A stretch of 64,000 bases of DNA from Trichocoleus sp. FACHB-46 (GTDB lineage: Bacteria; Cyanobacteriota; Cyanobacteriia; FACHB-46). Shown piece by piece: positions 12,319 to 59,478 of the stretch. Both the position numbers and the translations under genes were made by a program. The notes beneath the pieces were generated by a model. That model made no database searches. It worked only from the letters and a program-made list of their open reading frames with translations, and had not been told where the DNA came from. The DNA is taken from NCBI RefSeq assembly GCF_014695385.1, contig NZ_JACJOD010000022.1, forward strand, positions 124,001 to 188,000, read 5' to 3'. Positions within the stretch are counted from its first letter, which is position 1, and every line of letters begins with the position of its first letter.

Positions 12319-12377
12319 GGCTGTTTAGAATTTACTCGTTGAACCCTACCTTTACCTTTTAGCCTGAACCAAATCTG

Positions 12378-13469: not shown

Positions 13470-14588
13470 CTAAGCTTGACTACTCACTAATTTTCTAGTC
13501 TGTTTGCGAATAAAAACTTCTGTTTTGACAAATAAAAATCCATAAATAGTAAGTAATAAACCTACTACTAAAACAGAGAAGCCGAGGTGAAGATAAGGGG
13601 GCAAATCAAGCAACTGATTGAGTCTACGCAAAGCCACCACAAAAAGCGGTTGATGAATTAAATATAGTTGATATGAGTAAAGTCCTAATAACGAAAGAAA
13701 GCTCATACCCCACTGTAGCGATCGCCATTGGCTCAAGAATTGGAGAAGCGCATAAAGTCCCAAGAATAGAATTGGCGAGAGTAGCACATCAAACCCAAAC
13801 ATATAAGTGATGTTAGCTTTGCCCAAAACCATTCCGGCACAAATTACAATACCAATCACAAAAGTACCAATAGCCGCTAGCCAATCAATTCTCCTAAAGG
13901 ATTGCTTCTCAAAGTAAACAAACCCCCAGTACAAACCAAGGCAAAGTTGAAAAAAGTAGCTACCCAAGAAGTTATTTTGCAATAAAAACCAGAAACTCGG
14001 TGAACTCTGAGGTAGAACCCAACAAAGAGCCTTAGTTAGGGCAGCAACTAAAATCCCTAAGCCCAAAATCTTGACTGTCTGCCCTCGGCAAAAATAGAAA
14101 ATTAGAGGAATGCTTAAATAAGCTTCTAGGATGACTGTAAAAAACCAAAAGCCAGGGTTGATCGATTGAAACTCATAACCTGCCAAACCAATACAGCTCA
14201 GGATAAAGTTCTGAATCGAGTTGATTTTTAAGTGGCCGAACCACTGATAGAGCATCAAACTAGATACAACCGCCAGAAAATAAGTAGGATACAGCCGAGA
14301 GATTCGCTTCTTTAACCACAATTTCCAATCTACCGATATCTCAGTTAAATTAGCTGTTTTCAAAGCTGAGGCTAAAGCATAGCTGGTATTAAACCCAGCC
14401 ATGACAAAAAAGATATCAACCGCAGCGTAGCCGAAGCGAGCCCCATTTCGATCCAAAGCGACGACTAAATCAAAGCGCTCAGGGTAGTTTTGAAAAAAGT
14501 GGAATAAGATAACTGCTAAGATTGCAATTCCCTTGGTTTGGTCAATCCAATCTAATCTCTTTCTAACCACTTTAGTTTCACAATTCAC
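13470..14588 (-). CDS. Membrane acyltransferase 3 family protein
   Basis: A 372-residue polytopic protein with about ten hydrophobic helices. The N-terminal signature RLDWIDQTKGIAILAVILFHFF carries the conserved catalytic-type His of the acyltransferase 3 (OafA/NodX) family; FGYAAVDIFFVMAGF follows. These enzymes acylate, usually O-acetylate, sugars at the membrane. The start is a GTG at 14588-14586 with AAGGAAA upstream. Co-transcription with glycosyltransferases and the HpsL-like gene suggests acetylation of the polysaccharide. This gene is more AT-rich than its neighbours, a possible sign of a different history. Confidence 0.9.
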   Translation of the reverse strand: MNCETKVVRKRLDWIDQTKGIAILAVILFHFFQNYPERFDLVVALDRNGARFGYAAVDIFFVMAGFNTSYALASALKTANLTEISVDWKLWLKKRISRLYPTYFLAVVSSLMLYQWFGHLKINSIQNFILSCIGLAGYEFQSINPGFWFFTVILEAYLSIPLIFYFCRGQTVKILGLGILVAALTKALCWVLPQSSPSFWFLLQNNFLGSYFFQLCLGLYWGFVYFEKQSFRRIDWLAAIGTFVIGIVICAGMVLGKANITYMFGFDVLLSPILFLGLYALLQFLSQWRSLQWGMSFLSLLGLYSYQLYLIHQPLFVVALRRLNQLLDLPPYLHLGFSVLVVGLLLTIYGFLFVKTEVFIRKQTRKLVSSQA

Positions 14589-14602
14589 GGCGGTTGATTT
14601 CC

Positions 14603-43775: not shown

Positions 43776-44455
43776 TCCGCGTTCTACTAGTCGATGACCA
43801 AAGTATTCTGCGCCAGGGTTTGAAAGCACTGCTGGAGCTAGAGCCAGACCTGGATGTGGTGGGAGATGCCAGTAACGGGCAAGTTGCGCTCCAACAAGTA
43901 GAAGCACTGCAACCCGATGTGGTGCTGATGGATGTGCGGATGCCTGTAATGGATGGGGTTGCCGCTACCAGAAGCATCTGCCAACGCTTTCCAGCAATTA
44001 AAGTCTTGGTATTGACCACCTTTGATGACGATGAATACATTGCTGAAGCCATGCGAGTGGGGGCGATCGGCTATCTGCTTAAAGATACGCCTTCGGAGGA
44101 GCTGGCTGCGGCGATCCGAGCTGTTTATAAGGGATACGCCCAATTTGGCCCAGGTATTTTTCAGAAAGTGCTTTCTCACATGGGGCCGAAACCGAGTGCG
44201 AGTGCTAACTCACCTGCTGAGCCGTTGCCTCCAGGATTGAGCGAACTCACGCCCAGAGAACGGGAAGTGTTGCGCCTGATTGCGGCGGGTTCTAGTAACC
44301 GAGAAATTGCGCAGACTTTGTTTATCTCAGAAGGTACGGTCAAAAATCACGTCACTAATATTCTGAATCGGCTGAATTTGCGCGATCGCACTCAAGCAGC
44401 TATCTTCGCCAATGCTTGTTTAGCGTTGCTGAATGACGGAAGCGGTAGCCTGTAA
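43772..44455 (+). CDS. NarL-type response regulator, partner of the preceding kinase
   Basis: 227 residues. The receiver has Asp54 in VVLMDVRMPVMDG and Lys in YLLKDTPSEE. The HTH is LTPREREVLRLIAAGSSN, IAQTLFISEGTVKNHV. The ATG at 43772 overlaps the kinase stop and starts directly at MIRVLLVDDQ. An upstream in-frame ATG at 43730 lies inside the kinase gene and is unlikely. The pair probably controls a small regulon; the divergent Spy-like gene is a candidate target. Confidence 0.95.
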   Translation: MIRVLLVDDQSILRQGLKALLELEPDLDVVGDASNGQVALQQVEALQPDVVLMDVRMPVMDGVAATRSICQRFPAIKVLVLTTFDDDEYIAEAMRVGAIGYLLKDTPSEELAAAIRAVYKGYAQFGPGIFQKVLSHMGPKPSASANSPAEPLPPGLSELTPREREVLRLIAAGSSNREIAQTLFISEGTVKNHVTNILNRLNLRDRTQAAIFANACLALLNDGSGSL

Positions 44456-44476
44456 ACTCAGATCGGCAAGTTTTGG

Positions 44477-45292
44477 TTGAGTAGAAAATTGGTGCCAACT
44501 GCTACGACTTCTGTTACCTACCCCAAGCGCAATCCTCAGGCTCGTTTGCGGCTATTTTGCTTTCCCTACGCGGGCGGCAACTCTTTCATCTTTCGACCTT
44601 GGCTGAATCACTTGCCATCAGATGTTGAACTAGGCGCGATCGAGATACCTGGGCATGGCACACGCATGGCCGAACCGCTATTAACTCGGATGCCTGAGTT
44701 GGTAGCAGCGATCGCCTCAGATCTCCTGCCCCACCTAGACAAACCTTTTGCGTTTTTCGGCCACAGTATGGGAGCCTGGGTCAGCTTTGAGGTAGCTCGC
44801 TGGTTACAAGCCCATGAGCACTTATGTCCGGTGCATCTTTTTGTGTCTGGGTCACGGGCTCCTCAATTGCCTAACTTGCGATCGCCACTACACCAGTTAC
44901 CAGAAGTGGAATTCGTCGCAGCGTTGCGTCGGCTACAAGGCACTCCAGAAGCAGTTTTAGAGCATACGGAGCTGATGGAGTTAATGCTGCCGATTCTCCA
45001 GGCTGACTTTACGGTGCTAGAAACCTACACATATTCACCTCAAACTCCCCTACCTTGCTCAATCACAGCGTTTGGAGGATTGCAGGATATAGATGTGTCT
45101 CCGGAGATGTTACAAGCTTGGCAAACCCAAACTAGTGCTAGTTTTTCTCACCGAATGCTACCAGGTAATCACTTTTTCATTCACTCAGACCAAACGTTGC
45201 TCCTAGAACTTTTAGCCCAAGAACTCACTCAAGTTGTCAGCTATCTACTTGAGTATGCCTCTCTCAAATTCCCTCCAGATTTAAGGAGTTAG
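44477..45292 (+). CDS. Type II thioesterase (alpha/beta hydrolase)
   Basis: 271 residues of the GrsT/SrfTE-II family. LRLFCFPYAGGNSFIFRPW is the family start, FFGHSMGAW holds the nucleophile Ser97, and GNHFFIHS near residue 234 supplies the His. These enzymes clear misacylated carrier proteins of PKS/NRPS lines. The start is uncertain: a TTG at 44477 or a GTG at 44492, with no clear ribosome site. The C-terminal tail follows a CTCCAGATTTAAGGAG stretch that looks like repeat remnant. The phosphopantetheinyl transferase gene follows after 9 bases. Confidence 0.88.
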   Translation: MSRKLVPTATTSVTYPKRNPQARLRLFCFPYAGGNSFIFRPWLNHLPSDVELGAIEIPGHGTRMAEPLLTRMPELVAAIASDLLPHLDKPFAFFGHSMGAWVSFEVARWLQAHEHLCPVHLFVSGSRAPQLPNLRSPLHQLPEVEFVAALRRLQGTPEAVLEHTELMELMLPILQADFTVLETYTYSPQTPLPCSITAFGGLQDIDVSPEMLQAWQTQTSASFSHRMLPGNHFFIHSDQTLLLELLAQELTQVVSYLLEYASLKFPPDLRS

Positions 45293-45301
45293 GGGGGCCA
45301 A

Positions 45302-46048
45302 ATGCAGCATTGTGAGGACAATCCTTGGCAGCCGCCACCCGCCGATTTGAAGTTGGCTCAGGATGAAGTACATGTCTGGTGTATGGTGCTAGACCAAGAC
45401 CCAGCGTTGGTTGAGCAGTTTCATGCAACCCTAGCCAGCGACGAACAGGAACGGGCCGCGAAATTCTATTTTCCTAAAGATAGGCAGCATTTTATTGTGG
45501 CGCGAGGCTTACTACGCCTAATCTTGGGCCGCTACCTCAACCAATCACCCGTTCAACTACATTTTGCCTACAACACCTACGGCAAGCCCAGGTTAGAAGC
45601 TACTCCATCGCTACATTTCAACTTATCTCACTCGAAGGGATTGGCTCTATTGGGAGTGTCGAGCGATCGCGAACTAGGAATCGACCTCGAATATATCCGC
45701 ACGGATTTTCCCGTTGATCAGGTAGCTAAATCTGTCTTTTCAGTTTCAGAGCAAAATATCTTGCGATCGCTGCCTGACGCCCTCAAACCTGAAGCATTCT
45801 TTAATGCCTGGACTCGTAAAGAAGCTTATATCAAAGCTTTGGGGCAAGGGTTGTCGATTCCGCTCAATCAGTTTGATGTAGCGTTCGTCCCTGGCGAACC
45901 TGCGGCTTTGCGAGAAGTCAGAGGGACTTGGTCAAACGCCCACAACTGGACTTTGCAGCACCTCAGCCCTGCGCTTAACTATGCAGGTGCGATCGCAGTA
46001 GCAGGATCAGGCTGGCAACTCAAGGCTTGGCGCTGGTTAAATGGCTGA
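45302..46048 (+). CDS. 4'-phosphopantetheinyl transferase, Sfp/HetI type
   Basis: 248 residues. FNLSHSKGLALLG, LGIDLEYIR (Asp128 and Glu130 for Mg2+) and FNAWTRKEAYIKALG (167-181) are the three Sfp-class motifs. It converts apo acyl or peptidyl carrier proteins to holo form. Cyanobacteria often have only one such enzyme, which must serve all their carrier proteins, so its link to the thioesterase is real but not exclusive to one pathway. The ATG at 45302 abuts the thioesterase gene. Confidence 0.92.
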   Translation: MQHCEDNPWQPPPADLKLAQDEVHVWCMVLDQDPALVEQFHATLASDEQERAAKFYFPKDRQHFIVARGLLRLILGRYLNQSPVQLHFAYNTYGKPRLEATPSLHFNLSHSKGLALLGVSSDRELGIDLEYIRTDFPVDQVAKSVFSVSEQNILRSLPDALKPEAFFNAWTRKEAYIKALGQGLSIPLNQFDVAFVPGEPAALREVRGTWSNAHNWTLQHLSPALNYAGAIAVAGSGWQLKAWRWLNG

Positions 46049-47374: not shown

Positions 47375-48100
47375 ATGAAAAGTCACCTTGTGGCGATCGC
47401 GGAGTTATCTACTGCCGATCGCGAGGCTATGTATGGCCTATTAAGCACTCATTTTTCCGGAGTCAAGCGAGCGGTTTTTGAAGCTGACTTGAGTACCAAA
47501 AACTGGGTGATCTTATTGAAAGATGAGCGATCGCAGACCCTCAAGGGTTTCTCCACAATTCTGATGTATGAAACTGAGTTTGAGGGTGAGGATCTGACCG
47601 TTGTCTACTCTGGCGACACGATCATGGACCCCAGCGCTTGGTCTAGTTCAGCGCTCTCACGGGCTTGGATCGCCTCTGTCAATCAATTACGGCGCAAATA
47701 TCCTCGTGGCAAACTTTATTGGCTCTTGATCTCCTCTGGCTATCGTACCTACCGCTTTTTACCCACGTTTTGGCAAGAATTTTATCCTCGCTATGATGCC
47801 CTCACCTCTCCCACAATGACTAGATTGATGCAATTTCTAGCGCAGCGGCAGTTTGGCGACTGTTATGACGCTACCACTGGAATTGTCCGTTTTCCCCATC
47901 CGCAACAGCTCAAGGGACAGCTTCAGGGAATTCCAGTAGAGCGCTGCAAAGATCCACATATTGATTTTTTTGCCAGCCAGAACCCACATCACAATCAAGG
48001 AGATGAGTTGGTGTGCTTAGCAGAGATTACCGAAACTAACTTAACGCCAGCAGGACGGCGGATGTGGTTCGCCACGCTAGAACCTGCGGCCCTGGTGTAA
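47375..48100 (+). CDS. Unknown protein, possible GNAT-fold, first gene of the tailoring operon
   Basis: 241 residues, no signal peptide or membrane segment. The pattern (EAMYGLLSTHF, WVILLKDE, GFSTILMYETEF, VVYSGDTIMDPSAW) resembles an N-acetyltransferase-like fold with a mixed sheet, but no acetyl-CoA pyrophosphate loop (R/QxxGxG) is evident. I do not assign a function. It begins a run of same-strand genes and is separated from the first Rieske gene by 6 bases, so it is almost certainly part of that transcript. Confidence 0.8.
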   Translation: MKSHLVAIAELSTADREAMYGLLSTHFSGVKRAVFEADLSTKNWVILLKDERSQTLKGFSTILMYETEFEGEDLTVVYSGDTIMDPSAWSSSALSRAWIASVNQLRRKYPRGKLYWLLISSGYRTYRFLPTFWQEFYPRYDALTSPTMTRLMQFLAQRQFGDCYDATTGIVRFPHPQQLKGQLQGIPVERCKDPHIDFFASQNPHHNQGDELVCLAEITETNLTPAGRRMWFATLEPAALV

Positions 48101-48106
48101 CGACTC

Positions 48107-49204
48107 ATGAGTAGCAAAGCTGGGACGTGGACAGAAACCTTTAATCATCCCGATCGCTTTATCCAAGGGTGGCATTGGGCACTGCGATCGCGAGATCTCA
48201 AAGTAGGGCAGGTCAAACCTGTGCAGCTGTTGGGGCGAGAGTTGGCAATCTACCGCAACCAAGATGGCCAAGTGGTGGCCCTAGATGCATACTGCCCACA
48301 TATGGGGGCACATTTGGCGGAAGGCAAAGTAGATGGCACAGGCATTCGCTGTTTCTTCCATAACTGGAAATTTGATTCTCAAGGGCATTGTGTAGATGTG
48401 CCTTGCTTAGGGAAAATGATTCCTGCCAAACTCTCCAGTTGGCCAGCCGTCGAGCATTACGGCTTGATTTGGGTTTGGACGGGAGAGACACCCCAGCAAT
48501 CTCTACCCTTTGTCCCAGAGCTAGAACATACACACTGTGACGTGATGTTTGGCTCGCATTTTTTCAAAAACTGCCATCCGAATGTGCTGCTGATCAATGC
48601 GATCGATGCTCAGCATTTCAATACGGTGCATAACTTTCCGATTCAGATTGTGTTCCGCACAGAGACGCTGCATCGCAATGCCATCACCTTCAGTAACACG
48701 ACACGGGGTGGCGATGAATCTTGGCTAATGCGGTTGATTCTGCCGTTTTATAAAAATGAGGGCACCTACAGCATGTGCTACTGGTATGGCAGCACGGGTA
48801 CAGTCACCCTCGGCCCCGATTTTCTCCACTTCTACATCATGTTTACTCTACGGCTGTTGGAAGGTGGTAAAACAGAAGGACAAACCGTTTTAATCACCAA
48901 AAAGCGACCTGGGCTTCTGGGTTGGCTGTTGAATCGACTAATTCTATTCGTTACCCAATTAGTCGGCAACTACTTTGCCAAAGGTGATACTCAGGTCTTT
49001 CAGACGATTAAATTCAACCTCAAAACTCCGACCAAAGCGGATCAATCTATCGTTCAGTTCATGCAGCATGTCGAGCAACAGCAACCGCTGGCTTGGGGAA
49101 CTTGGGAGCCAACTTCAGAACTAGCGCAAGCACCTGTGACAGAAAAACTACAGACTAATTCTGGGACGCAACCTGAGCCAGAACGGGTTTGGGAGGCTGT
49201 ATGA
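48107..49204 (+). CDS. Rieske non-haem iron oxygenase (1)
   Basis: 365 residues. The Rieske centre is C63-x-H65 ... C82-x2-H85 (YCPHMGAHL, CFFHNW). The mononuclear iron site is D167-x2-H170-x4-H175 (NAIDAQHFNTVHN). The form GWHWALRSRDLKVGQVKPV resembles KshA/DAF-36-like steroid oxygenases and related single-component enzymes rather than benzoate dioxygenases. The C-terminal section has a hydrophobic segment (GWLLNRLILFVTQLV) that may touch membrane. It needs an electron donor, perhaps the ferredoxin encoded at 53464. The SDR gene overlaps its stop by four bases (ATGA). Confidence 0.92.
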   Translation: MSSKAGTWTETFNHPDRFIQGWHWALRSRDLKVGQVKPVQLLGRELAIYRNQDGQVVALDAYCPHMGAHLAEGKVDGTGIRCFFHNWKFDSQGHCVDVPCLGKMIPAKLSSWPAVEHYGLIWVWTGETPQQSLPFVPELEHTHCDVMFGSHFFKNCHPNVLLINAIDAQHFNTVHNFPIQIVFRTETLHRNAITFSNTTRGGDESWLMRLILPFYKNEGTYSMCYWYGSTGTVTLGPDFLHFYIMFTLRLLEGGKTEGQTVLITKKRPGLLGWLLNRLILFVTQLVGNYFAKGDTQVFQTIKFNLKTPTKADQSIVQFMQHVEQQQPLAWGTWEPTSELAQAPVTEKLQTNSGTQPEPERVWEAV

Positions 49205-50043
49205 AAACAGTCCTGATTACAGGCTGCTCCTCTGGATTTGGACGCGGCATGGTGGATGAGTTTCTCCGGTGCGGTTGGCAAGTGATCAGCACGATGCGGC
49301 AAGCAAACCAACGCCGAGGGCTACTGGCAGAATCGCTAGAGAAGTATGGCGATCGCTTAACAATCCTCGATTTGGATGTCACCGATCCGACTCAACGAGA
49401 GACAGTTACAGAGTATGTACGCCAAAAAGGAGATTTAGATTGTCTGGTAAATAATGCAGGCGATCGCTTTTTCGGCCCCCTGGAGGATCTCAGCGAAGCT
49501 CAACTGCGGCGACAAATGGAGGTAAATTTCTATGGTCCCGCGCTGCTGACGCGAGCTTTACTACCTGGGATCCGGACAGCGCAGGGCACGATTGTTTTTG
49601 TCTCCTCGACGTTTGGTTATACAGGTTTCCCGCTGACCTCCGCTTACTGCGCTAGTAAATATGCTTTGGAAGGCTTGGCTGAGAGTCTGTATTACGAGCT
49701 AAAGCCGCATGGCGTGCATGTTGCCCTGATTGAACCAGGAGCCAGCCACACTAACTTTGGTCACGATCCGGGTTGGGCAGAAGGAGATTCGGAAGTTTAT
49801 CAGTTACAGATGCAGAATTATCACTTGCTGAAGGAGCGATTACGGGCCAAATCCCCCAACAACACAATCCAAGTGGCTCAACAAGCGGTGGCTTTGGCAG
49901 AAGGGCGATCGCGACGCTTACGAGTACGAGTCGGACAGGATGCAACATTGGTGTATTTCTTTCAACGGCTCGTACCTGATTGGATTCGCCTGCCCTTGAT
50001 CGATCGGTTCTACCGTCGGATCTTTTTACGGAGGCCAGCTTAA
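49201..50043 (+). CDS. Short-chain dehydrogenase/reductase
   Basis: 280 residues. The NAD(P)-binding TGCSSGFG is at 7-14, NNAG at 84-87, Ser135/136 in FVSSTFG, and Y149-x3-K153 in YCASKYALEG. The set is complete, so it should be active. It probably reduces or oxidises a ketone/alcohol created by the neighbouring oxygenases. The ATG at 49201 overlaps the preceding stop, and the stop TAA overlaps the next ATG (TAATG). Confidence 0.92.
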   Translation: MKTVLITGCSSGFGRGMVDEFLRCGWQVISTMRQANQRRGLLAESLEKYGDRLTILDLDVTDPTQRETVTEYVRQKGDLDCLVNNAGDRFFGPLEDLSEAQLRRQMEVNFYGPALLTRALLPGIRTAQGTIVFVSSTFGYTGFPLTSAYCASKYALEGLAESLYYELKPHGVHVALIEPGASHTNFGHDPGWAEGDSEVYQLQMQNYHLLKERLRAKSPNNTIQVAQQAVALAEGRSRRLRVRVGQDATLVYFFQRLVPDWIRLPLIDRFYRRIFLRRPA

Positions 50044-50990
50044 TGAATCCGAACATTGCTGGATTTGATCTACCTCTGCTTGATGAAGGAGACAAACTCA
50101 ATCGGATTTTGGCTTCCACTTTAGGTAATCAGCTACCCACAGCAACACAGCTTTCCTACTCCTACCAGTCAATCTCGCAACTACCACAACCTTATTGGGA
50201 TGCAACGCATTTTGGTCTGGAACGGGTGGCGATCTTTCAGGATGCTAGTTCAACTGAACAACAGGCGATCGCGCAGATTGCTAGCCAAGGATTGTTGCTA
50301 GAAGCCTACTTCGTGGAAAAAGCGGGGATGGGCTACATGGCTAAGATGCTCTTGCTGGCAGAAACTCTAGAGGAACGAATGCTCTACAGTCTCTTCGCTG
50401 CCGAGGAAGCAACCCATTTAGCTCAGATTCGAGGTTTCTTTGCTCCGCAGGATGAGGGGGAAGAAAAAGAGTCGACTAGCACAGACGATCCGTTTCTCCG
50501 GTTTCTGTCAGATCTCTTAGAGACAGAGGACAAAGCCATCTTGCTATTTATCATTCAGGTGGTGTTGGAAGGATGGGGGCTGAGCCACTATCGCAGTTTA
50601 GCCAAGGGATGCTCTCACTTGGAGTTAGGCCAATTGTTTGAGCAATTTCTCCAAGCCGAAGCGCGTCATCATGGTTCTGGCTTGATGCTGTTTAACCAAA
50701 TATCTTTGTCTAAGCCAAGCCAAAGCGCCATCGTAGAAGCATTGATTCTGTTTCTTCGTATGGTACAAGTTGGGCCGCAGAGAGTCTTAAGTGCGATCGC
50801 TCAAGTCAAAGGAGATCTATCGCGATTGCAACAAATTCAAGTTTTGCAAGAGTTAGAAACTGAGATCCAGAGCGGGGCGCGGTTGAGTTATTTACGCTCC
50901 CTGATGCAGAAAACCACTGCTCACGCCATTGTCCAAGAATTAGAGGAACGTGGTTCTTTCAAACCCTTCCCAGCGGAGAAATGTATATGA
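50043..50990 (+). CDS. Ferritin-like diiron protein
   Basis: 315 residues of helices. Candidate ligands are Glu87/Glu92 (LLLEAYFVEKAG), Glu122-x2-His125 (AEEATH), Glu176 (VVLEGWG) and Glu206-x2-His209 (EARHHG). This is the paired E...ExxH pattern of a four-helix diiron bundle. The sequence is not a ferritin, rubrerythrin or acyl-ACP desaturase that I know. It may be an oxygenase or oxidase of the CADD/HDO-like group, which is inference. A disordered acidic stretch lies at about 136-150. The following gene overlaps its end by 4 bases. Confidence 0.85.
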   Translation: MNPNIAGFDLPLLDEGDKLNRILASTLGNQLPTATQLSYSYQSISQLPQPYWDATHFGLERVAIFQDASSTEQQAIAQIASQGLLLEAYFVEKAGMGYMAKMLLLAETLEERMLYSLFAAEEATHLAQIRGFFAPQDEGEEKESTSTDDPFLRFLSDLLETEDKAILLFIIQVVLEGWGLSHYRSLAKGCSHLELGQLFEQFLQAEARHHGSGLMLFNQISLSKPSQSAIVEALILFLRMVQVGPQRVLSAIAQVKGDLSRLQQIQVLQELETEIQSGARLSYLRSLMQKTTAHAIVQELEERGSFKPFPAEKCI

Positions 50991-52258
50991 ACAATTTATT
51001 TGACGACCCTCAAACAAATACCTTGCTGAAGAATCAAAAGGTTTACCGCAAGCTGCAAATTAACTACCAACGCAACCAGCAACAAGATCAAACTGCCGCG
51101 ATCGATGCCGCTGCTGCCAACTTTAACTATGACCACTGCAAAGATGAATACTGGAACCCGGAGGAGTTCTCCCTGCTTTACGGCACTCCTTTGTGGGAGC
51201 AAGCCAGCTCTAGCCAACGCATTGTATTAAACCATCTTTATTGGGTAGCTTATTACTCGCAGATTGTCTCAGCGGAGATCGCGACGATTTTCTTTAACCA
51301 GACAAGCGCGGCGGGTCTCTATGCTCAAGAAGATTTCCGCTTGGTCTGTGACACTTTGGATCTAGAGTCAGCCCAAGAACGAGCCCATATTCAGGCATTC
51401 AGAACCATCGCTAGTCAGACAGAGGCAGCCTTGTTCGGTCAACGGGTTTTTACGTATCCCATGCGGGGACCGTTTGCAGAGACAGTGATCTTTGCCGATA
51501 CCAACGCCCTAAAACTCTGGTGGAAGCAGGTTCAGCTCAAATGTTTTGGCTTGTTGTCTTCAGATAACACCTTTCTAGCGTGCCAATATTTCACGGTTCG
51601 GGGAGTGCGGACACTGAACGGCAAACTGGTACAGCATAAGCTCAGCGCTTACTACCAAAAGCATCCTGATCCAGAGAATGCACCGATTCCCAGCCAAATT
51701 TCCTACTATCATTTCTTGGATGAGAGTTTCCATTTCAACAGTTCTACGATTCTGTCTCATGATGTCGTGAAGTGCTTAAAGCCTCCGACAAAGTTTGAAC
51801 AAACGGTCGCAAACTTAGGGTTGCGGGGTTGTCAGCGCGATCATTATCATTTCTCCGCAGCCATCAACGGCATCTTTTGGTATGACCCAGCTCTGTATAG
51901 AGCGATCTATCAAGTGCTGCGATCGCCTGTATTTGAGATGAGCGATCGCGAAGCTAAAGAAATGATAATGGCTTGCTTTACTCAAGAATCCGAAGGATTG
52001 CACCGCAGCTATCAAACGCATCAAGAGGCAATGGAATCGTACAAGGTATATGTCGATAAGCTCGATTATGTCTGGCAGAGTAATCGGGAAATGTCTTTGA
52101 TGGCAGCCAATTCTATTCCTAAATATTTAGCAACTCAGCAACGAGCCATGCAGAATTTTTTGGCTACAGGAGAAGTTGCTTCTGTGCCGCGATCGCAGTC
52201 AACCTTTATTTCCACGCCTGCGGAAGTGGCTAACGCGGTTTTGGAGGAGGCGAGTTGA
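50987..52258 (+). CDS. AurF-like diiron oxygenase
   Basis: 423 residues. ERAHIQAF (Glu131-x2-His134), SAEIAT (Glu97) and LDESFHFNSS (Asp245, Glu246, His249) with H258 fit the diiron signatures of the AurF (p-aminobenzoate N-oxygenase) family. The family oxidises amines to nitro compounds or hydroxylates other substrates. Two further cysteine-rich points and WWKQVQLKCFGLL lie between the motifs. The ATG at 50987 is preferred (GGAG 8 bases before); the earlier ATG at 50981 adds two residues. Its TGA is two bases before the next ATG. The substrate is unknown. Confidence 0.8.
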   Translation: MNNLFDDPQTNTLLKNQKVYRKLQINYQRNQQQDQTAAIDAAAANFNYDHCKDEYWNPEEFSLLYGTPLWEQASSSQRIVLNHLYWVAYYSQIVSAEIATIFFNQTSAAGLYAQEDFRLVCDTLDLESAQERAHIQAFRTIASQTEAALFGQRVFTYPMRGPFAETVIFADTNALKLWWKQVQLKCFGLLSSDNTFLACQYFTVRGVRTLNGKLVQHKLSAYYQKHPDPENAPIPSQISYYHFLDESFHFNSSTILSHDVVKCLKPPTKFEQTVANLGLRGCQRDHYHFSAAINGIFWYDPALYRAIYQVLRSPVFEMSDREAKEMIMACFTQESEGLHRSYQTHQEAMESYKVYVDKLDYVWQSNREMSLMAANSIPKYLATQQRAMQNFLATGEVASVPRSQSTFISTPAEVANAVLEEAS

Positions 52259-52260
52259 AC

Positions 52261-53316
52261 ATGCAATTCATTCCTTCCACTTTACCTGATCTCAAAGCTC
52301 CAGTTTTTAACAATGGAAATGTCGTAGCTCAAGGCTGGTATATCATCTGTGCGAGTCGTGATTTATCAGTTGGTCGAGCAAAGTCTTTTGATCTGTGTGG
52401 TCTAAGAATAGCTGTATATCGGGGCGAAGATGGGGAGGTTCGAGCTTTAGATGCCTATTGCCCTCATTTGGGCACCGACTTGAGCCTAGGACGAGTCGAT
52501 GGCAATATGATTCGTTGCTTTTTCCATCACTGGGCCTTTGATGGCGCTGGTAAATGCCAAGACATCCCTTGTCAAGCTCAAATTCCAGATAGAGCCAAGA
52601 TTCAAGCTTATGCTACCGACGAGAAATATGGCTTTATTTGGGTGTATCCAGACAGCCAAGCGCCAGAACCTGTAGTTGAGTTTGACGAGTTAAAAGGTAA
52701 ATCCTTGGTTGTTTGGCACGATCCGCCTTTGGAGCGGCACTGCCATCATCACATCTGCATGATGAATGGCATCGATGCACAACATTTACGAACGGTTCAC
52801 AAGCTCAATGTTGAGATGGAATTATCTCTCGATCGCAATGCAATCGGTAACGTGATTGATTTCACCATGTGCGGAGAGATTCCTGGTAAGACGTGGCGAG
52901 AAACCGTACTTCAGAGATTTTTAGGTAAAAGGTATGAGTATTCCATGCGCTACGCCGATGGCTGTATGGGATTGCTAACCATGATGAAAAATGTGCGATT
53001 GGTGTCACCGCTACATATGATTTACGCCTACACACCGATCGCGCCTAACAAAACTCGGATTCAACCGATTTATGTAGCAGCGAAAAGACCAGGAATTTGG
53101 GGTTGGTTCGTAACGCGATCGCTCCTACTCCTCACTCGCCTGAGCTACTACTTTCTTCGTGATGAAGATGGCCTGATCTACAACAACATCCGGTTTGATC
53201 CGCAAGTGCTTCTGGGTATTGATGCACCGTTAGTGAAATATATGAACTATGTGAATCAGCTCAAACCTTCGCTCTGGTCAAAATGTTTTTCTAAGCAGAA
53301 ATCATCCGAAGTTTAA
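52261..53316 (+). CDS. Rieske non-haem iron oxygenase (2)
   Basis: 351 residues. The Rieske ligands are C67-x-H69 and C86-x2-H89 (YCPHLGTDL, CFFHHW). The mononuclear site is D172-x2-H175-x4-H180 (GIDAQHLRTVH). It is the same subfamily as the enzyme at 48107 (RDLSVGRAKSFDLCG against RDLKVGQVKPVQLLG), so the two are probably related by an old duplication. GGAGGCGAG precedes the ATG. The C-terminal region has GWFVTRSLLLLTRL, again a possible membrane contact. The following 147-base gap carries a foldback repeat. Confidence 0.92.
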   Translation: MQFIPSTLPDLKAPVFNNGNVVAQGWYIICASRDLSVGRAKSFDLCGLRIAVYRGEDGEVRALDAYCPHLGTDLSLGRVDGNMIRCFFHHWAFDGAGKCQDIPCQAQIPDRAKIQAYATDEKYGFIWVYPDSQAPEPVVEFDELKGKSLVVWHDPPLERHCHHHICMMNGIDAQHLRTVHKLNVEMELSLDRNAIGNVIDFTMCGEIPGKTWRETVLQRFLGKRYEYSMRYADGCMGLLTMMKNVRLVSPLHMIYAYTPIAPNKTRIQPIYVAAKRPGIWGWFVTRSLLLLTRLSYYFLRDEDGLIYNNIRFDPQVLLGIDAPLVKYMNYVNQLKPSLWSKCFSKQKSSEV

Positions 53317-53336
53317 ACGTTTTTATTTGTATCTAA

Positions 53337-53413
53337 TGTAGTGAGGCAGAGCATTCGACCTATAGCCTTTGCAGTTGTCGGAAGAACATCTACCGAATGC
53401 TTCGCCTCTACAG
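53337..53413. repeat. MITE-like foldback element in the operon
   Basis: GAGGCAGAGCATTCG (53343-53357) pairs with CGAATGCTTCGCCTC (53394-53408) with two mismatches, and flanking TGTAG/CTACA extends the ends. The centre is 36 bases. The element is about 77 bases long and fills the only larger gap of the operon. Similar GAGGCGAAGCATTCG sequences are common in cyanobacterial dispersed repeats, by memory. Confidence 0.65.
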
Positions 53414-53463
53414 GTGCAGCCCAAAATATTTCATTAATAATTATTTGACTCCTGGTTTTTATC

Positions 53464-53763
53464 ATGAACGCGTCCTGTTGTGTGGTTCACTTTCCGAATG
53501 CAAACTATGCATCCCTTACTCTAGAACCCCACCAGCATCTAGCCGAGCAGCTCACAGTCCAAAATTCTCCGGTGCTGTTTGGTTGTCGCACAGGTCTTTG
53601 TGGAACCTGTTTGGTTACCGTGACCGGGGAGCTGTCACCACCTAGTGCCGCCGAACAAGAGATTTTGGATATGCTAGCACCTGGGAATCCTCAAGCCAGA
53701 TTGGCTTGCCAAATCGATGTGATGGGAGAAATCGCGATCGCGCCTCTGACGGAGGTTATATGA
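53464..53763 (+). CDS. [2Fe-2S] plant-type ferredoxin
   Basis: 99 residues. C41-x4-C46-x2-C49 ... C82 (GCRTGLCGTC, RLACQ) is the plant-type cluster signature. It is shorter at the N-terminus than photosynthetic PetF and has CRTGLCGTC, typical of oxygenase-associated ferredoxins. It is the obvious electron donor for the Rieske oxygenases and perhaps the diiron enzymes beside it. No ferredoxin reductase is encoded here; the cell's FNR or photosystem I could reduce it. The ATG overlap with the next gene is ATGA, with GGAGG upstream. Confidence 0.93.
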   Translation: MNASCCVVHFPNANYASLTLEPHQHLAEQLTVQNSPVLFGCRTGLCGTCLVTVTGELSPPSAAEQEILDMLAPGNPQARLACQIDVMGEIAIAPLTEVI

Positions 53764-54782
53764 AATTTGAGGATTTCTGGTATGTGGTGGCTCAAAGTGA
53801 GCAACTAAAACCCAATAAAGTTCTATCTCGGACTGTATTGGGAGAATGGCTAGCGGTTTTTCGAGATGAGAATGGTGAAGCTGTCGCTCTACGCGATCGC
53901 TGTATGCACCGCAACAGTCGGCTATCTAGTGGTCAGGTATGCCAAGGACAGGTGCATTGTCCGTATCACGGCTGGGTATATGACAACAATGGAACTGTCG
54001 TAGCAGTGCCAGCAGAAGGAGATGACTTCAAGCAGCTTCAAGCTCGACGGGTGAAGCATTACGAGACTTGTGAGCAAGATGGTTATGTCTATGTACGCCT
54101 GACCGACCAGCCGAGTGAGGAATTTGAGCCCTTTCCGATGCCTCACTACCAAGAGCCAGGCTGGGCAACGGTACGAGTGATCAACCGCTTCCGCAATAAT
54201 GTCACGAACTGCGCTGAGAACTTTATTGATATTCCGCATACGGCTTCTGTACATCCTGGTGTTTTCCGTACGCCTCGCAGACAAAAGCTAGAGATGACAG
54301 TAGAGCGGCAAAAAGGAGCAGTGCGGGCAGAATACCGAAACGAAACTACGAATCTGGGTTGGTACGCCAAATTTCTCAATCCCAAGGGCGGCAAGATTCG
54401 CCATACAGATTATTTCTTCATGCCCAATGTCACCAGCGTCGAGTATGACATGGGGCCGTATCGCCAACTGTGGATTACCAGTCAATCCGTCCCAGAAACA
54501 GAAGATTCCACCTTGGTCTATACCGATGTTACTTACAACTATGGCATTTGGAATCAATTGGCGCGTCCCTTCATCCATTGGACAGCTCAACACATCATCG
54601 GTCAGGATGTGGCAGCGTTGGACTTGCAGCAAGAAGTGATTAAGAAATACGGTCAGAAATTTGCTAATACTCCGGCGGATACGATTCATACATTCGTGGA
54701 ATCGATTCGCGATCGCATTGCTGCTGGTGAAGATCCCCGTCTGTTGCCTGATCAGTCGGTTCAAGTCACGTTCTGGGTGTAG
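53760..54782 (+). CDS. Rieske non-haem iron oxygenase (3)
   Basis: 340 residues. The Rieske centre is C48-x-H50 and C67-x2-H70 (CMHRNSRLS, CPYHGW); the iron site is D157-x2-H160-x4-H165 (ENFIDIPHTASVH). The CPYHGW form and ENFIDxxH pattern belong to a different branch from the other two (PobA/CAO/vanillate-demethylase-like). I chose the ATG at 53760, with GGAGG at 53750-53754. It probably takes electrons from the ferredoxin whose stop overlaps its start. The TAG stop lies two bases before the next ATG. Confidence 0.92.
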   Translation: MKFEDFWYVVAQSEQLKPNKVLSRTVLGEWLAVFRDENGEAVALRDRCMHRNSRLSSGQVCQGQVHCPYHGWVYDNNGTVVAVPAEGDDFKQLQARRVKHYETCEQDGYVYVRLTDQPSEEFEPFPMPHYQEPGWATVRVINRFRNNVTNCAENFIDIPHTASVHPGVFRTPRRQKLEMTVERQKGAVRAEYRNETTNLGWYAKFLNPKGGKIRHTDYFFMPNVTSVEYDMGPYRQLWITSQSVPETEDSTLVYTDVTYNYGIWNQLARPFIHWTAQHIIGQDVAALDLQQEVIKKYGQKFANTPADTIHTFVESIRDRIAAGEDPRLLPDQSVQVTFWV

Positions 54783-54784
54783 GG

Positions 54785-55504
54785 ATGGCGATCTTTGCTG
54801 CTTTTGTTACTTTACTATTGTTGACCGTAACTCGCGATCGCTGCTTTAATCTCCTCTTGCAGAAGAACCGAGAAGATTGGCTGCTAGATATGTCAGGTTT
54901 ATTGGTTCAAGGAGTGGTGATTCCTGCTCTACAACTACTATTGGTTTATCAACTATATCAATGGTTGTTACCTGCCTGGAAAGGAGGTTTAGAGCTACCT
55001 CTTGGGCTAGGGTTCCTGCTCAGCTTTGTTTTCGTAGATTATCTCTATTATTGGAACCATCGCCTGCTCCATCATCGCTTCTGGCCTTGGCACCAAGTTC
55101 ATCACACCGTTACTCAAATGGACGTGTTGGGCACCTCTCGCAATACGCTATGGAGCAGCTTTTTTATTCTGTATCTGTGGATTCATCCCTTGTTTCTCTT
55201 TCTGTTGCAGCATCCAGCAGGTTATGTTTTGGGAGTCACCTTAACTGCAATTTTGGATCTGTGGCGACATAGTGCGATCGCTCCTGATCCTCAGAGTTTG
55301 ATTTATTGTTGGCTTTCACCTTGGCTTGTTTTGCCCCAAGACCATGCTTGGCATCATGCCCAACCTCAGGGCTGCAATTATGGAGCGAATCTGAAGCTGT
55401 GGGATCAATTGCATGGGACTTATTACGAATGCGATCGCGCTCCAGAAGCATTGGGGATTGAGACGAATTTGACGTTATCTCAGAAGCTATTTTGGCCTTT
55501 TTAG
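54785..55504 (+). CDS. Fatty acid hydroxylase/sterol desaturase family membrane enzyme
   Basis: 239 residues with about four membrane helices and three histidine boxes: H92RLLHH97, H103QVHH107 and H187AWHH191, with His162 and His210 also placed for metal binding. This pattern belongs to the ERG3/SUR2-like membrane diiron oxygenases (C4-sterol oxidase, beta-carotene hydroxylase, fatty acid hydroxylase). It may hydroxylate a lipid or isoprenoid chain. The ATG at 54785 directly follows the Rieske gene. The sequence suits neither CrtR nor DesA exactly, so the substrate is open. Confidence 0.9.
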   Translation: MAIFAAFVTLLLLTVTRDRCFNLLLQKNREDWLLDMSGLLVQGVVIPALQLLLVYQLYQWLLPAWKGGLELPLGLGFLLSFVFVDYLYYWNHRLLHHRFWPWHQVHHTVTQMDVLGTSRNTLWSSFFILYLWIHPLFLFLLQHPAGYVLGVTLTAILDLWRHSAIAPDPQSLIYCWLSPWLVLPQDHAWHHAQPQGCNYGANLKLWDQLHGTYYECDRAPEALGIETNLTLSQKLFWPF

Positions 55505-55521
55505 GGATAGGGAGTTGATCG

Positions 55522-56289
55522 ATGGAGACTCATCAAACGGAGATAAACCTAACCCCCCAACCCCGTTCCCTGCCAGGGAAGGGGGAGCAAATAGTGAACC
55601 AGATGAAGGTAGAGCGGCAGGGAATGACTTGGCTTAGCGCTATATTGGCTTGCTTTCCGGTGCTGGTGATGTTGTTAGCAGGAGGTTCTTTTCTGGCAAT
55701 CTGTATCTCTCCTAGCGTTTGGACTGTTTTACTGGTGCTGTTTTCGCTTTATGGCATGCCGCTATTGATTTACCGCATCCATAATCACTTTTATCCTCAG
55801 TTAGAAGGCATTAGCTATCTGCAAGGAAAAGAGTATTCGCCTTGGTGGGGGAGTCATCAAATTCAGGCTGTCTATATTGCCTTTCCAGCTTTAGAAACTG
55901 TGCTGCGTTTAATTCCTGGTGCCTTCTCCTTTTGGTTGCGGCTGTGGGGTTCCAAAATAGGCAAAGGTGTTTATTGGACTCCCCATCTGGAGATTGCCGA
56001 TCGCGGATTGTTAGAGATAGGCGATCGCGTCATTTTCGGTCATCAGGTGGGTCTCTATCCGCACATTATTAAGCCTCGAAAGCAAGATTTGATGCTGTAT
56101 GTCAAACAGATCAAAATCAGAGACGGTGTGTTTTTAGGGGCTTGGAATCACCTTGGGCCTGGGGTTGTTGTACAAGCAGAAACATACATCCCCGTTTTTA
56201 CGCATGTGTACCCTAACCAAATGATTGATCAGAGCAAAGTTCAAACTCTTTTAGCCAAACAGCAACATCAACCCTCAAAACTTGAGTAA
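55522..56289 (+). CDS. Membrane-associated hexapeptide-repeat acyltransferase-like protein
   Basis: 255 residues. Two hydrophobic helices (about 38-80) lead to a left-handed beta-helix-type region with hexapeptide-like triplets: IGKGVYWTPHLEIADRGLL, EIGDRVIFGHQV, IKIRDGVFLGAWNHLGPGVVV. Such domains use acyl-CoA or acyl-ACP to acylate sugars or lipids. The active-site His of the family could be His159 or His193. The first 27 residues are encoded partly by a dispersed C-rich repeat (55546-55588); the ATG at 55522 has GGGAG 7 bases before, but an ATG at 55603 would begin at the conserved part. Substrate unknown. Confidence 0.75.
   Translation: METHQTEINLTPQPRSLPGKGEQIVNQMKVERQGMTWLSAILACFPVLVMLLAGGSFLAICISPSVWTVLLVLFSLYGMPLLIYRIHNHFYPQLEGISYLQGKEYSPWWGSHQIQAVYIAFPALETVLRLIPGAFSFWLRLWGSKIGKGVYWTPHLEIADRGLLEIGDRVIFGHQVGLYPHIIKPRKQDLMLYVKQIKIRDGVFLGAWNHLGPGVVVQAETYIPVFTHVYPNQMIDQSKVQTLLAKQQHQPSKLE
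55546..55588. repeat. C-rich dispersed repeat inside the acyltransferase 5' end
   Basis: The segment AACCTAACCCCCCAACCCCG continues to TTCCCTGCCAGGGAAGGGGG and contains TTCCCTG/CAGGGAA (7-base stem). This form is a frequent dispersed repeat in cyanobacterial genomes, by memory. It is in frame and encodes about 14 residues. Confidence 0.65.
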
Positions 56290-56301
56290 TCCTAAAATTT
56301 T

Positions 56302-57639
56302 ATGACTCATTACGGTCTGTTATGCCCTCCCACAACTGGGCACCTCAACCCCATGCTAGCTCTAGGCTGCGAGCTGAAACAACGAGGCCATCAAGTCACT
56401 CTCTTCAATATCCTCGATACAGCAGCAAAGGCAAAAGCGGTTGAAATTAACTTTTGGCCCCTTGGTAGGAAAGAGTTTCCTTTAGGAACTTTGGGAAATT
56501 TCTATGATCATTTGGGCACATTACGAGGTTTAGCGGCTTTTCAGACCACCCTGAACTTCAGACAACAAGTTTGGGCTACTGTGTTTCTGCAAGAAGCTCC
56601 TGCTGCAATTCAAGCCGCAGGGGTAGAAGCTCTGCTCGTGGATCATGTGATTGTTGCTGGAGGAGCGATCGCCGAACGACTATCTCTGCCCTTTGTTTCT
56701 CTCTGTAGTGCCCTCTTAATGCAGCCCGATGACAGTGTGCCTCCTTTCTTTGCAGGTTGGCCTTATGACCCAGCACCTTGGACACGGTTACGAAATCGGT
56801 TTGGCCATGCTCTATTGGTGCAGTATTGGCGCATGGTGCATCAACCTGTGAATGAGTACCGCCAAATGTGGCGATCGCCGCTATATCTTAATCCCAGTGA
56901 TGCACTCTCCCCCCTCGCTCAAATCAGCCACCAACCTGCCGAGTTTGAATATCCTCGTCAATATCTTGCTCCCTACTTCCACTTTACTGGGCCGTTCCAC
57001 AGCACTGTGAGTCGAGAAACCGTCTCCTTCCCATTTGAGAAGCTAACAAGTCAACCTTTGATCTATGCCTCAATGGGAACGCTACGAAACCGTTCGCATC
57101 GGGTGTTTGAGCAAATTGCTGCCGCTTGTGTTGGCTTAGATGCTCAGTTGGTAATTGCTTTAGGGAAAGGTCTTGCTCCGGAAGCTCTTGGGGCTCTCCC
57201 TGGCGATCCGATTGTGGTCGGTTATGCTCCCCAATTAGAACTTCTGCAACGCGCCACTCTAGCCATCACCCATGCAGGCTTGAATACTGCCCTAGAATCT
57301 TTACAAGCAGGAGTGCCGATGGTGGCGCTCCCAGTCACAGATGATCAGCCAGGAGTTGCAGCTCGGATCGAATGGACAGGCGCTGGAGAAGTAGTTCCAA
57401 AATCTCGCTTGACCACAGCCCGTTTAAGAACTGCGGTTCAACAAGTCTTAACTTGCGAAACTTATAAACAAAACGCAGTCAGATTACGACAAGCGACCGC
57501 CCAAGCTGGCGGAGTAACACGGGCTGCGGACATTGTGGAACGAGCGATCGCAACTGGCAAGCCTGTCTTGACTCAAGATTTCTCCAAACCTAAACCTGAA
57601 CCATGCGCCCCATTATTCAACTCTTTGCCAAGCTGTTAA
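56302..57639 (+). CDS. GT1/MGT-family glycosyltransferase (UGT-like)
   Basis: 445 residues of the GT-B fold. The N-terminus YGLLCPPTTGHLNPMLALG is the acceptor-side loop. The UGT donor signature is AITHAGLNTALESLQAGVP (about 318-336), followed by LPVTDDQPGVAARIEW. This resembles CrtX (zeaxanthin glucosyltransferase) and macrolide-type transferases that add glucose to hydrophobic hydroxyls. In this setting it may glycosylate the hydroxylated product of the operon. The ATG at 56302 starts 12 bases after the preceding stop. The GH3 gene begins inside its 3' end (37-base overlap). Confidence 0.88.
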   Translation: MTHYGLLCPPTTGHLNPMLALGCELKQRGHQVTLFNILDTAAKAKAVEINFWPLGRKEFPLGTLGNFYDHLGTLRGLAAFQTTLNFRQQVWATVFLQEAPAAIQAAGVEALLVDHVIVAGGAIAERLSLPFVSLCSALLMQPDDSVPPFFAGWPYDPAPWTRLRNRFGHALLVQYWRMVHQPVNEYRQMWRSPLYLNPSDALSPLAQISHQPAEFEYPRQYLAPYFHFTGPFHSTVSRETVSFPFEKLTSQPLIYASMGTLRNRSHRVFEQIAAACVGLDAQLVIALGKGLAPEALGALPGDPIVVGYAPQLELLQRATLAITHAGLNTALESLQAGVPMVALPVTDDQPGVAARIEWTGAGEVVPKSRLTTARLRTAVQQVLTCETYKQNAVRLRQATAQAGGVTRAADIVERAIATGKPVLTQDFSKPKPEPCAPLFNSLPSC

Positions 57640-59150
57640 GCTCGGAGGCCCACAGATTTCATCAAGCTCTGCAAGACCCACAAGCCGCTCAACAAAAAGT
57701 TCAAAAGAAGATTTTTGAGTGCTTCGTTGCCAGTGAATATGGCAGATCTTTAGGGGTGCGATCGCTGACCGACTGGCAGAAAATCCCGATTGTGAACTAC
57801 ACCGATTTGGAGCCGTGGATTGAGCGCCAAAAGCAGATTCAGCAAGCTCTTCTGACCCCGCAACCCATTCTCTTTTACGAGAAAACTTCTGGGAGCCGTG
57901 GGGCTGCAAAATGGGTTCCCTACACGCGATCGCTGCGCCGCTCCTTTAGCCAAATGTTTTGCATCTGGGCACATGATCTGATCACAAATGGGCCTCAGTT
58001 CTCCACAGGAAAAGTCTATTTCTGTATCTCGCCGCAACTCACTCAACCCACACAGACAGATACAGGAGTACAGGTTGGACTAGCAGATGATGCCGAATAT
58101 CTAGATGGGTGGTTGCAGTGGGCGTTACGACCTTTTTTATTGGCTCCTACGGGTTTAAGTCGTCTCCGCGATCCAGAAGCGTTTAAGGAGCAGCTCTGTC
58201 TAGGGTTATTGCAATCAGAAAAACTAGAGATTATCTCAATTTGGAGTCCTAGCTTTCTCAGTGTCCATCTTGATTACATCCAGCAACACCGCCAAAAGCT
58301 TTGTGAGCAACTGCGCGATCGCGTCTCTCCCCGACGCCTCGCCTTACTCTCAGACCCCACAACGACTTGGACAGAAATTTGGCCCCACCTAAAGCTGATT
58401 TCCTGTTGGGATAGCGTCAATGCTGCCGACCAAGCTCAAGCGCTGCGATCGCACTTTCCTGGTGTGATGGTGCAGGGTAAAGGACTTTTGGCGACTGAAG
58501 CCCCGATGACAGTGCCACTGATTGCCGCTCAGGGATCTGTGCCGCTGCTGAATGAAGTCTTCTTTGAATTTGAGGATTCCACTGGCAAGATTCATCTTTT
58601 GCACGAGCTAGAGCCAGCCACAGAATACTCAATCATCTTGTCCCAAAAAGGCGGGTTGTATCGGTATCGCATGGGCGATCGCGTCTGGATGACTCACACC
58701 TACCTGAACACGCCTTGCCTGGAGTTCTTGGGCCGAGACCAGATGACCAGCGATTTAGTTGGCGAAAAACTACATGCTGCGTTTGTGGCTCAAGTCCTCG
58801 ATCACCTAAATTTGGGGGGCACAACGTTTAGAACTTTAGTTCCCGTCACTCAACCTCAGCCCCATTATGTTTTGTTGCTCAATCAGGCTGATCGGGAAGG
58901 AGATGCGATCGCCCAACGACTAGATGCTGCCCTCAGCGAGTCTCCCCACTATGAACATGCTCGGCTTTTAGGACAACTAGCACCTGCTCAAGTTTGGGTA
59001 TCGCCAGATGTGCCTGACCTGGTGCTGCGACAGAAATTGCAAGCGGGCCAAAAGTGGGGGGACATCAAGCATGAAGTGTTGGCGACCAAGCCAGTCGAAA
59101 CACTGCCGACGGTTGGGCTTAGGTCTAGTATTTTCGGTAGGGTGGGTTAG
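57603..59150 (+). CDS. GH3-type acyl-acid amido synthetase
   Basis: 515 residues. FYEKTSGSRGAAKWVPYT (residues 91-108) is the ATP-binding motif of the GH3 (auxin-responsive) family, and YRYRMGDRVW (about 350-360) is the second adenylate motif. GH3 enzymes activate carboxylic acids as adenylates and join them to amino acids or other amines; bacterial members act in natural-product pathways. The C-terminal domain (about 400-515) is present, so the protein is full length. It overlaps the glycosyltransferase gene by 37 bases, the tightest coupling in the operon, and is the last gene. Confidence 0.88.
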   Translation: MRPIIQLFAKLLSSEAHRFHQALQDPQAAQQKVQKKIFECFVASEYGRSLGVRSLTDWQKIPIVNYTDLEPWIERQKQIQQALLTPQPILFYEKTSGSRGAAKWVPYTRSLRRSFSQMFCIWAHDLITNGPQFSTGKVYFCISPQLTQPTQTDTGVQVGLADDAEYLDGWLQWALRPFLLAPTGLSRLRDPEAFKEQLCLGLLQSEKLEIISIWSPSFLSVHLDYIQQHRQKLCEQLRDRVSPRRLALLSDPTTTWTEIWPHLKLISCWDSVNAADQAQALRSHFPGVMVQGKGLLATEAPMTVPLIAAQGSVPLLNEVFFEFEDSTGKIHLLHELEPATEYSIILSQKGGLYRYRMGDRVWMTHTYLNTPCLEFLGRDQMTSDLVGEKLHAAFVAQVLDHLNLGGTTFRTLVPVTQPQPHYVLLLNQADREGDAIAQRLDAALSESPHYEHARLLGQLAPAQVWVSPDVPDLVLRQKLQAGQKWGDIKHEVLATKPVETLPTVGLRSSIFGRVG

Positions 59151-59193: not shown

Positions 59194-59478
59194 TTACGCC
59201 TCGACTTTGACACCGCGCCAAAAGGCGACATAGCCTTCAATATTTTTGGCAGCCTGCTTCGCCTCTGGATAGTACCAAGCCGCGTCTTTGTTCACTTGGC
59301 CTTCTACTTCAACGTTGTAGTAGCTGGCTACACCTTTCCAAGGACAAGTGGTATGAGTTGAACTTTCTTTAAAGAATTCGCGATTGATGGCATCTGGGGG
59401 GAAGTAGTAGTTGTTCTCTACCACTTCGCAATTGTTACTTTCGGCGAGGACTGCACCGTTCCAAACTGCTTTTGCCAT
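59194..59478 (-). CDS. DUF427-family protein
   Basis: 94 residues. VWNGAVLAESNNCEVVENNYYFP, THTTCPWKG, YYNVEVEG and AAWYYPEAK are the features of the small beta-barrel DUF427 family, found widely in bacteria and fungi without an assigned role. A short ATG-led frame at the normal length. It is convergent with the GH3 gene, so it is probably not part of the operon. Confidence 0.9.
   Translation of the reverse strand: MAKAVWNGAVLAESNNCEVVENNYYFPPDAINREFFKESSTHTTCPWKGVASYYNVEVEGQVNKDAAWYYPEAKQAAKNIEGYVAFWRGVKVEA

Follow-up and report, generated by a model that had tools for sequence, protein, structure and literature searches.

The question raised by the DNA described here is what a cyanobacterium might build with one operon that places many iron-dependent oxygenases beside acyl- and amide-forming enzymes. 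The window analysed was a 64,000-nt stretch of contig NZ_JACJOD010000022.1 from Trichocoleus sp. FACHB-46, and all positions refer to it unless another record is named. It contains an operon of twelve intact genes on the + strand (47375-59150), which we named g1 to g12. A preliminary description had proposed a single biosynthetic operon in which iron-dependent tailoring is combined with amide formation, and this outline was supported. We observed that the GNAT-fold protein g1 and the GH3 amido synthetase g12 recur together without the oxygenases; this amide-forming pair therefore looks like the core of the system, while the Rieske and diiron enzymes look like one of several oxidation modules that can be exchanged. 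We judge it about an even chance that the operon encodes one O2-dependent pathway in which a heavily oxidised fatty-acyl amide or aminolipid is synthesised, and we infer its substrates, step order and product.

The co-occurrence of the pair was evaluated in 386 Cyanobacteriota genomes. g1 was present in 30 and a g12-like GH3 gene in 31, with both in 29 (phi 0.95); g1 occurred alone in one genome and GH3 in two. The two genes were within 15 kb of each other in 22 of the 29 genomes. The positives span 26 genera for GH3 and 25 for g1, and the Fisher p-values for the co-occurrence are not to be taken literally, as they ignore shared ancestry. Every genome with a cluster-type copy of g5, the diiron gene by which such clusters were searched, also had g12 (21/21) and g1 (21/21). 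In two Synechocystis-type genomes (G076 and G093), g8 and GH3 were present though unlinked, so linkage alone does not account for the co-occurrence.

The pair was also found in genomes that lack g5. At two loci (L091 and L093), it was accompanied by a fatty acid desaturase and, in one case, by a g8-like Rieske protein. At four others (L094-L097), it was found with at least two B12-binding radical-SAM proteins and a double-GNAT-like protein, and g10 also accompanied the pair in L096 and L097. These four come from small, non-photosynthetic-looking side lineages of the Cyanobacteriota, presumably anaerobes of the Melainabacteria type, and theirs is possibly an oxygen-independent variant. Outside the phylum, an IncF mobilizable plasmid of Citrobacter portucalensis (L098/L103; NZ_CP134684.1, 51.4-63.5 kb) carries GNAT-GH3 with five B12-type radical-SAM proteins, an N-acetyltransferase, PAP2, a SnoaL-like protein and a fatty acid desaturase, apparently an undescribed biosynthetic cluster. 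Burkholderia arboris (L102) has the pair with a desaturase, a double-GNAT protein and a Rieske protein. In Acinetobacter baumannii (L101; NZ_CP064203.1, 13144-18029), it lies beside LuxR-, amidase-, EmrA/EmrB-, TolC-like and double-GNAT genes; this 3.97-Mb record is labelled a plasmid and looks like a chromosome.

These loci suggest, at a confidence that we would put midway between doubt and acceptance, that GNAT-GH3 is a multi-phylum acyl-amide core with exchangeable C-H oxidation sets (Rieske/diiron, desaturase with or without Rieske, or B12-dependent radical-SAM). If so, this pathway superfamily would be one that has yet to be described, and its members would include aerobic and possibly oxygen-independent forms of related chemistry. 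The preliminary description had put amide formation at the end of the pathway. Since the pair recurs without oxygenases, the amide step is more likely a core step than a terminal one.

The two proteins of the pair were examined individually. g1 (47375-48100, + strand, 241 aa) has no Pfam match, in agreement with its earlier listing as the one unknown of the operon, but a fold could now be assigned. An AlphaFold2 model from 28 orthologues, with a mean predicted local distance difference test score (pLDDT) of 92, matched GNATs in Foldseek (best E 3e-6) and in VIA-align (Z ~12 over ~155 residues). By this model g1 has the GNAT acyltransferase fold, and acylation is its predicted activity, from the fold only. 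Profile searches of the PDB gave no match for g1, nor for g5. In the orthologue alignment, the canonical R/Q-x-x-G-x-G/A acetyl-CoA loop is missing and a conserved SGDT(I/V)...W segment is seen instead, so that the acyl donor may differ from the usual acetyl-CoA. g12 (57603-59150, + strand) is a GH3 acyl-acid amido synthetase (PF03321 7e-37, with GH3_M and GH3_C) with intact nucleotide-binding motifs, TSGSRGAAK and YRMGD. Its best NCBIfam match is OlsH (NF052613, 4e-8), at 32.1 bits against a cut-off of 620.

Conserved synteny in other genomes, which the preliminary description had proposed to look for, was found. In two sister species of the same genus, all twelve genes are intact and in identical order, and the ratio of nonsynonymous to synonymous substitution rates (dN/dS) is 0.026-0.136 for every gene. 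The genes are under purifying selection and the operon is not decaying. As dozens of other genomes preserve the gene order too, the arrangement is not a matter of chance. A search with g5 gave a close relative (E < 1e-150) in 21 of the 386 Cyanobacteriota genomes, others having distant CylC-type paralogues. Scanning 84,980 species genomes with g5 added Oscillatoria, Laspinema, Phormidium, Nostoc, Pantanalinema, Phormidesmis, Synechocystis and other cyanobacteria, and also metagenome-assembled genomes (MAGs) labelled Gammaproteobacteria, Oligoflexus and Halobacteriovoraceae. Neighbourhood maps of the cyanobacteria and of those MAGs showed a conserved set, g2-g4-g5-g6-g7-g8-g9-g10-g12, usually with g1. 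Pairwise distances of ten gene families were correlated (rho 0.61-0.94), as expected if the gene set descends or moves together. Viral contigs contained no g5 relative, and PLSDB plasmids contained only distant CylC-type ones (28-34%).

Two of the twelve genes are accessory. The SDR gene g3 (49201-50043, + strand; short-chain dehydrogenase, PF00106 2.9e-44) is found in the cluster only in the window's genus and at loci L050, L045, L047 and L048, and the gene for the GT1 (macrolide-type) glycosyltransferase g11 (56302-57639, + strand; PF00201, TIGR01426) lies in the operon only in the window's genus. This weakens the earlier proposal that the pathway ends in glycosylation. Other loci have recurrent extras, namely an Amidohydro_3 protein, an Mpo1-like protein, a GT2 glycosyltransferase, a SnoaL-like protein and PAP2. 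In a gammaproteobacterial MAG (L045, 18433-20172, - strand), Amidohydro_3 is fused with the Mpo1-like domain; in cyanobacteria, the two are separate neighbouring genes.

The preliminary description knew of no described cyanobacterial pathway with such a gene set. However, the set matches orphan clusters in the catalogue of Eusebio et al. 2021 (PMC8406957). As described in the main text of that paper, 36 'Rieske-containing' CylC-homologue clusters with no known product have two to four Rieske proteins, a single CylC homologue and no carrier protein, and most have a sterol desaturase/fatty acid hydroxylase protein. They occur mainly in Nostocales and Oscillatoriales, with a related 'PriA-containing' form in Synechocystis. 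The operon in the window has three Rieske oxygenases, g2 (48107-49204; PF00355 1.7e-24, with a weak KshA_C match), g6 (52255-53316; PF00355 5e-25) and g8 (53760-54782; PF00355 and VanA_C), all on the + strand. It also has the membrane diiron enzyme g9 of the FA_hydroxylase superfamily (54785-55504, + strand; PF04116 9e-25), and g5 (50981-52258, + strand) is its sole CylC homologue. Neither a carrier protein nor an acyl-AMP ligase is encoded within the operon. In Synechocystis salina (L049), we came independently upon the PriA-type arrangement. By these described gene families, the operon can be assigned to the orphan 'Rieske-containing' class, in which it represents a variant at genus level that carries an SDR and a GT1 in addition. 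The main text of Eusebio et al. makes no mention of GH3, and it names acyl transferases only in general. What is new here is the amide core, the co-occurrence of g1 with GH3, the GNAT fold of g1 and a Gln signature in g5. The class had been labelled by its halogenase-like gene. A constant GNAT-GH3 part, together with a clade-wide change from Glu to Gln in g5 at a residue essential in the halogenase NocO, shifts the target of a search for chemists: instead of simply a chlorinated fatty acid, they would look for an oxidised acyl amide or aminolipid. With one core shared, the versions that depend on oxygen and those that use radical-SAM enzymes also lend themselves to a natural comparison.

GH3 enzymes adenylate acids and form amides. 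In the pathway that we propose, g12 would adenylate a free fatty acid with ATP and pass it to an amine, such as that of an amino acid, giving an amide that resembles a lyso-aminolipid. g1 would carry out a further N-acylation, perhaps from an acyl group bound to acyl carrier protein (ACP), a donor that is suggested since the usual coenzyme A loop is lacking. g10 (55522-56289, + strand), a membrane-anchored hexapeptide (left-handed beta-helix) acyltransferase-like protein, would add an O-acyl group; its PF00132 match is just under the cut-off, and it also matches the Pls/PosA terminal domain and WcaF-like proteins. The acyl part would then be oxidised at several C-H positions by the membrane enzyme g9, the soluble diiron enzymes g4 and g5 and the Rieske proteins g2, g6 and g8, fed by the ferredoxin g7. 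In the window's genus, g3 may interconvert alcohol and ketone, and g11 may attach a sugar.

Among these, g7 (53464-53763, + strand) is a plant-type [2Fe-2S] ferredoxin (Fer2; PF00111 1e-8) with Cx4CxxC kept in 33/33 sequences, and is likely the electron donor for the Rieske and/or diiron enzymes. The ferritin-like diiron protein g4 (50043-50990, + strand) has a weak MiaE match in Pfam. Its helical fold resembles the ribonucleotide reductase R2 protein and AurF with weak E values, and a PDB profile search likewise gave weak matches only. Its candidate ligands, E87, E122xxH125, E176 and E206xxH209, are all invariant in the orthologue alignment. The metal-ligand motifs had been described as intact earlier, and we could extend this to the orthologues. 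The Rieske, mononuclear-iron, ferredoxin, SDR, GH3 and histidine-box motifs are intact in the window and conserved across orthologues, including CxH...CxxH and DxxHx4H in g2, the corresponding motifs in g6, and TGxxxGxG and YxxxK in g3.

An oxidised acyl amide or aminolipid is the most economical reading of several signs: OlsH is the best match of g12, the ornithine-lipid hydroxylase OlsE (NF052566, 7.5e-18) is the best NCBIfam match of g9, and the recurrent partners include an Mpo1-like 2-hydroxy-fatty-acid dioxygenase, an amidohydrolase, PAP2 and a fatty-acid desaturase. A further sign is that the GH3 enzyme OlsH of planctomycetes makes N-acyl ornithine (PMC12493201). As in the OlsH/OlsI ornithine-lipid pathway, a bacterial GH3 enzyme would form the amide of an aminolipid, followed by an O-acyltransferase. 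In contrast to that pathway, g12 scores far under the OlsH cut-off and the operon has neither OlsI nor OlsG. The partner is instead a GNAT, the candidate O-acyltransferase is a hexapeptide protein, and many oxygenases are added.

Several points weigh against an oxidised acyl amide or aminolipid as the product. The OlsH and OlsE scores are far under their cut-offs (for g9, 64.9 bits against 475), so that substrates other than fatty acids and ornithine are conceivable. Two of the Rieske proteins are closest to the steroid enzymes KshA and SdmA. The window's own genome has no convincing amidohydrolase or Mpo1-like gene, and these two are therefore accessory. No metabolite has been linked to any cluster member. 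In the open-access literature, beyond which lie subscription papers and preprints, no product was found for the cluster or for the GNAT-GH3 core. Plant GH3 enzymes conjugate non-lipid acids too.

We also considered a pathway to a chlorinated fatty acid, which is favoured by the published classification of the CylC-type gene as a halogenase homologue. Here g5 would act as a dimetal-carboxylate halogenase on an acyl chain, free or bound as an amide, at a carbon that is not activated, with the other enzymes oxidising around it. This chlorination reading is implied by Eusebio et al. (PMC8406957). g5 is an AurF/CylC-type diiron protein (PF11583 1e-5, under the cut-off, clear by motifs) of the same AurF-like family as CylC and NocO. 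Nine residues are essential in NocO/CylC, the E252A variant of NocO is inactive, and a small Gln subset is mentioned (Wang et al. 2025, PMC12101540). Eight of the nine active-site residues are kept in 39/39 g5 sequences, namely E99, Q132, E133, H136, H244, D247, E248 and H251, which correspond to the first-helix Glu and the QExxH and HxxDExxH motifs of CylC/NocO. The ninth, at the position of NocO E252, is Gln218 in 37/37 cluster-linked copies, as placed by alignment to CylC-type sequences and by the published spacing to HxxDExxH. In contrast, 9/9 CylC-type paralogues from this phylum have Glu there, as do the unlinked relatives L067 and L069, and the Gln and Glu clades are split by a branch with 100/100 support. 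A Gln at a position essential in NocO means that halogenation by g5 cannot be assumed; as far as the residues indicate, Gln218 would fit either a differently tuned halide site or another reaction. The characterised relatives use ACP-bound substrates, whereas the operon has neither an ACP nor a fatty acyl-AMP ligase (FAAL) partner, and no tested member of the Gln subset was found in the literature searched. We therefore regard chlorination as a serious but somewhat less probable reading. It overlaps with the acyl-amide reading, as an acyl amide could also be chlorinated, and the confidences given to the readings need not sum to one. L069, from the Synechocystis-type genome G093, is a second g5 paralogue with the CylC-type Glu218, and a GT1 46% identical to g11 lies four genes away.

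The Rieske enzymes allow other products to be considered. The closest solved chain to the KshA/SdmA-like g6 is KshA (4e-26), SdmA is the best NCBIfam match of g2, g6 and g8, and g9 belongs to the sterol-desaturase/FA-hydroxylase superfamily, all of which would suit the oxidation of a hopanoid, a sterol-like compound or another terpenoid acid. The preliminary description had named an isoprenoid as an alternative to a hydrophobic acid. The SdmA scores, however, are about 80 against a 600-bit cut-off, and none of the neighbourhoods mapped shows a recurring terpene cyclase or prenyltransferase. The GNAT-GH3 core keeps company with fatty-acid desaturases and B12-radical-SAM enzymes instead, and the GH3, GNAT, Mpo1, OlsE-like and desaturase genes together point to acyl lipids; an isoprenoid is thus improbable. 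A non-lipid nitrogenous metabolite, in which SxtT/SxtDIOX-type enzymes would oxidise an alkaloid- or amino-acid-like core acylated by GH3 and GNAT, is only slightly less improbable. The nearest solved relatives of g8 are SxtDIOX, DdmC, NdmA and SxtT, several of which act on nitrogen-rich compounds, and the EmrA/EmrB- and TolC-like export genes next to the Acinetobacter pair read as for a secreted small molecule. Yet no core-building enzyme (polyketide synthase (PKS), nonribosomal peptide synthetase (NRPS), amidinotransferase or cyclase) recurs, and both the membrane enzymes g9 and g10 and the partners (Mpo1, PAP2, desaturase) point towards a lipid.

The cyanobacterial saxitoxin (sxt) cluster likewise has several Rieske oxygenases, a ferredoxin and a sterol-desaturase-like protein. 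Similarity was examined for SxtDIOX and SxtT, which g8 resembles. The sxt cluster was rejected as a match: in place of an SxtA-type PKS and an amidinotransferase, which it lacks, the operon has genes of the GH3, GNAT and CylC types. Catabolic operons, too, typically combine Rieske oxygenases and a ferredoxin, and degradation of an aromatic or xenobiotic compound was considered. This is very improbable and was rejected on gene content: the ATP-spending GH3, the GNAT, the hexapeptide acyltransferase and the GT1 belong to anabolism, genes for ring cleavage or downstream steps do not recur, and the cluster is conserved in phototrophs of many orders.

The layout was evaluated from gene calls and Pfam, which bore out the twelve same-strand genes and the families given to them earlier, with a weak match for g4 and matches under the cut-off for g5 and g10. 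No ACP, FAAL, PKS or NRPS was detected by Pfam among the twelve products. The earlier figures for the intergenic gaps (0-18 bases and one of 147) needed partial correction. The 147-bp gap, between g6 and g7 (53317-53463), was as described, but the other spacings are -37 to +17 bp, with five junctions overlapping by 1-10 bp and g11/g12 by 37 bp. A promoter and terminator scan gave counts no higher than in shuffled sequence, with no call within the 147-bp gap. The start codons of g3 and g8 were refined to ATG 49201 and ATG 53760, and that of g4 is most likely ATG 50043.

At its 3' end, the operon abuts a convergent DUF427 gene (59194-59478). The window has no tRNA and its composition is ordinary, so there is no sign of an island. 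Just upstream of the NAD kinase gene and g1, at 42432-46048, lie genes for a histidine kinase and a response regulator of the LuxR type, and after them those for a type II-like thioesterase (PF00975) and an Sfp-like phosphopantetheinyl transferase (PPTase). The upstream order is seemingly the same in the sister species. Outside the genus, the cluster is not flanked again by the PPTase, thioesterase or acyl-CoA synthetase genes that stand beside it here. Farther away, a run of genes on the - strand (9953-16240) encodes glycosyltransferases, two of the GT4 type and one GT2, as well as an Acyl_transf_3 protein, and is probably an exopolysaccharide operon.

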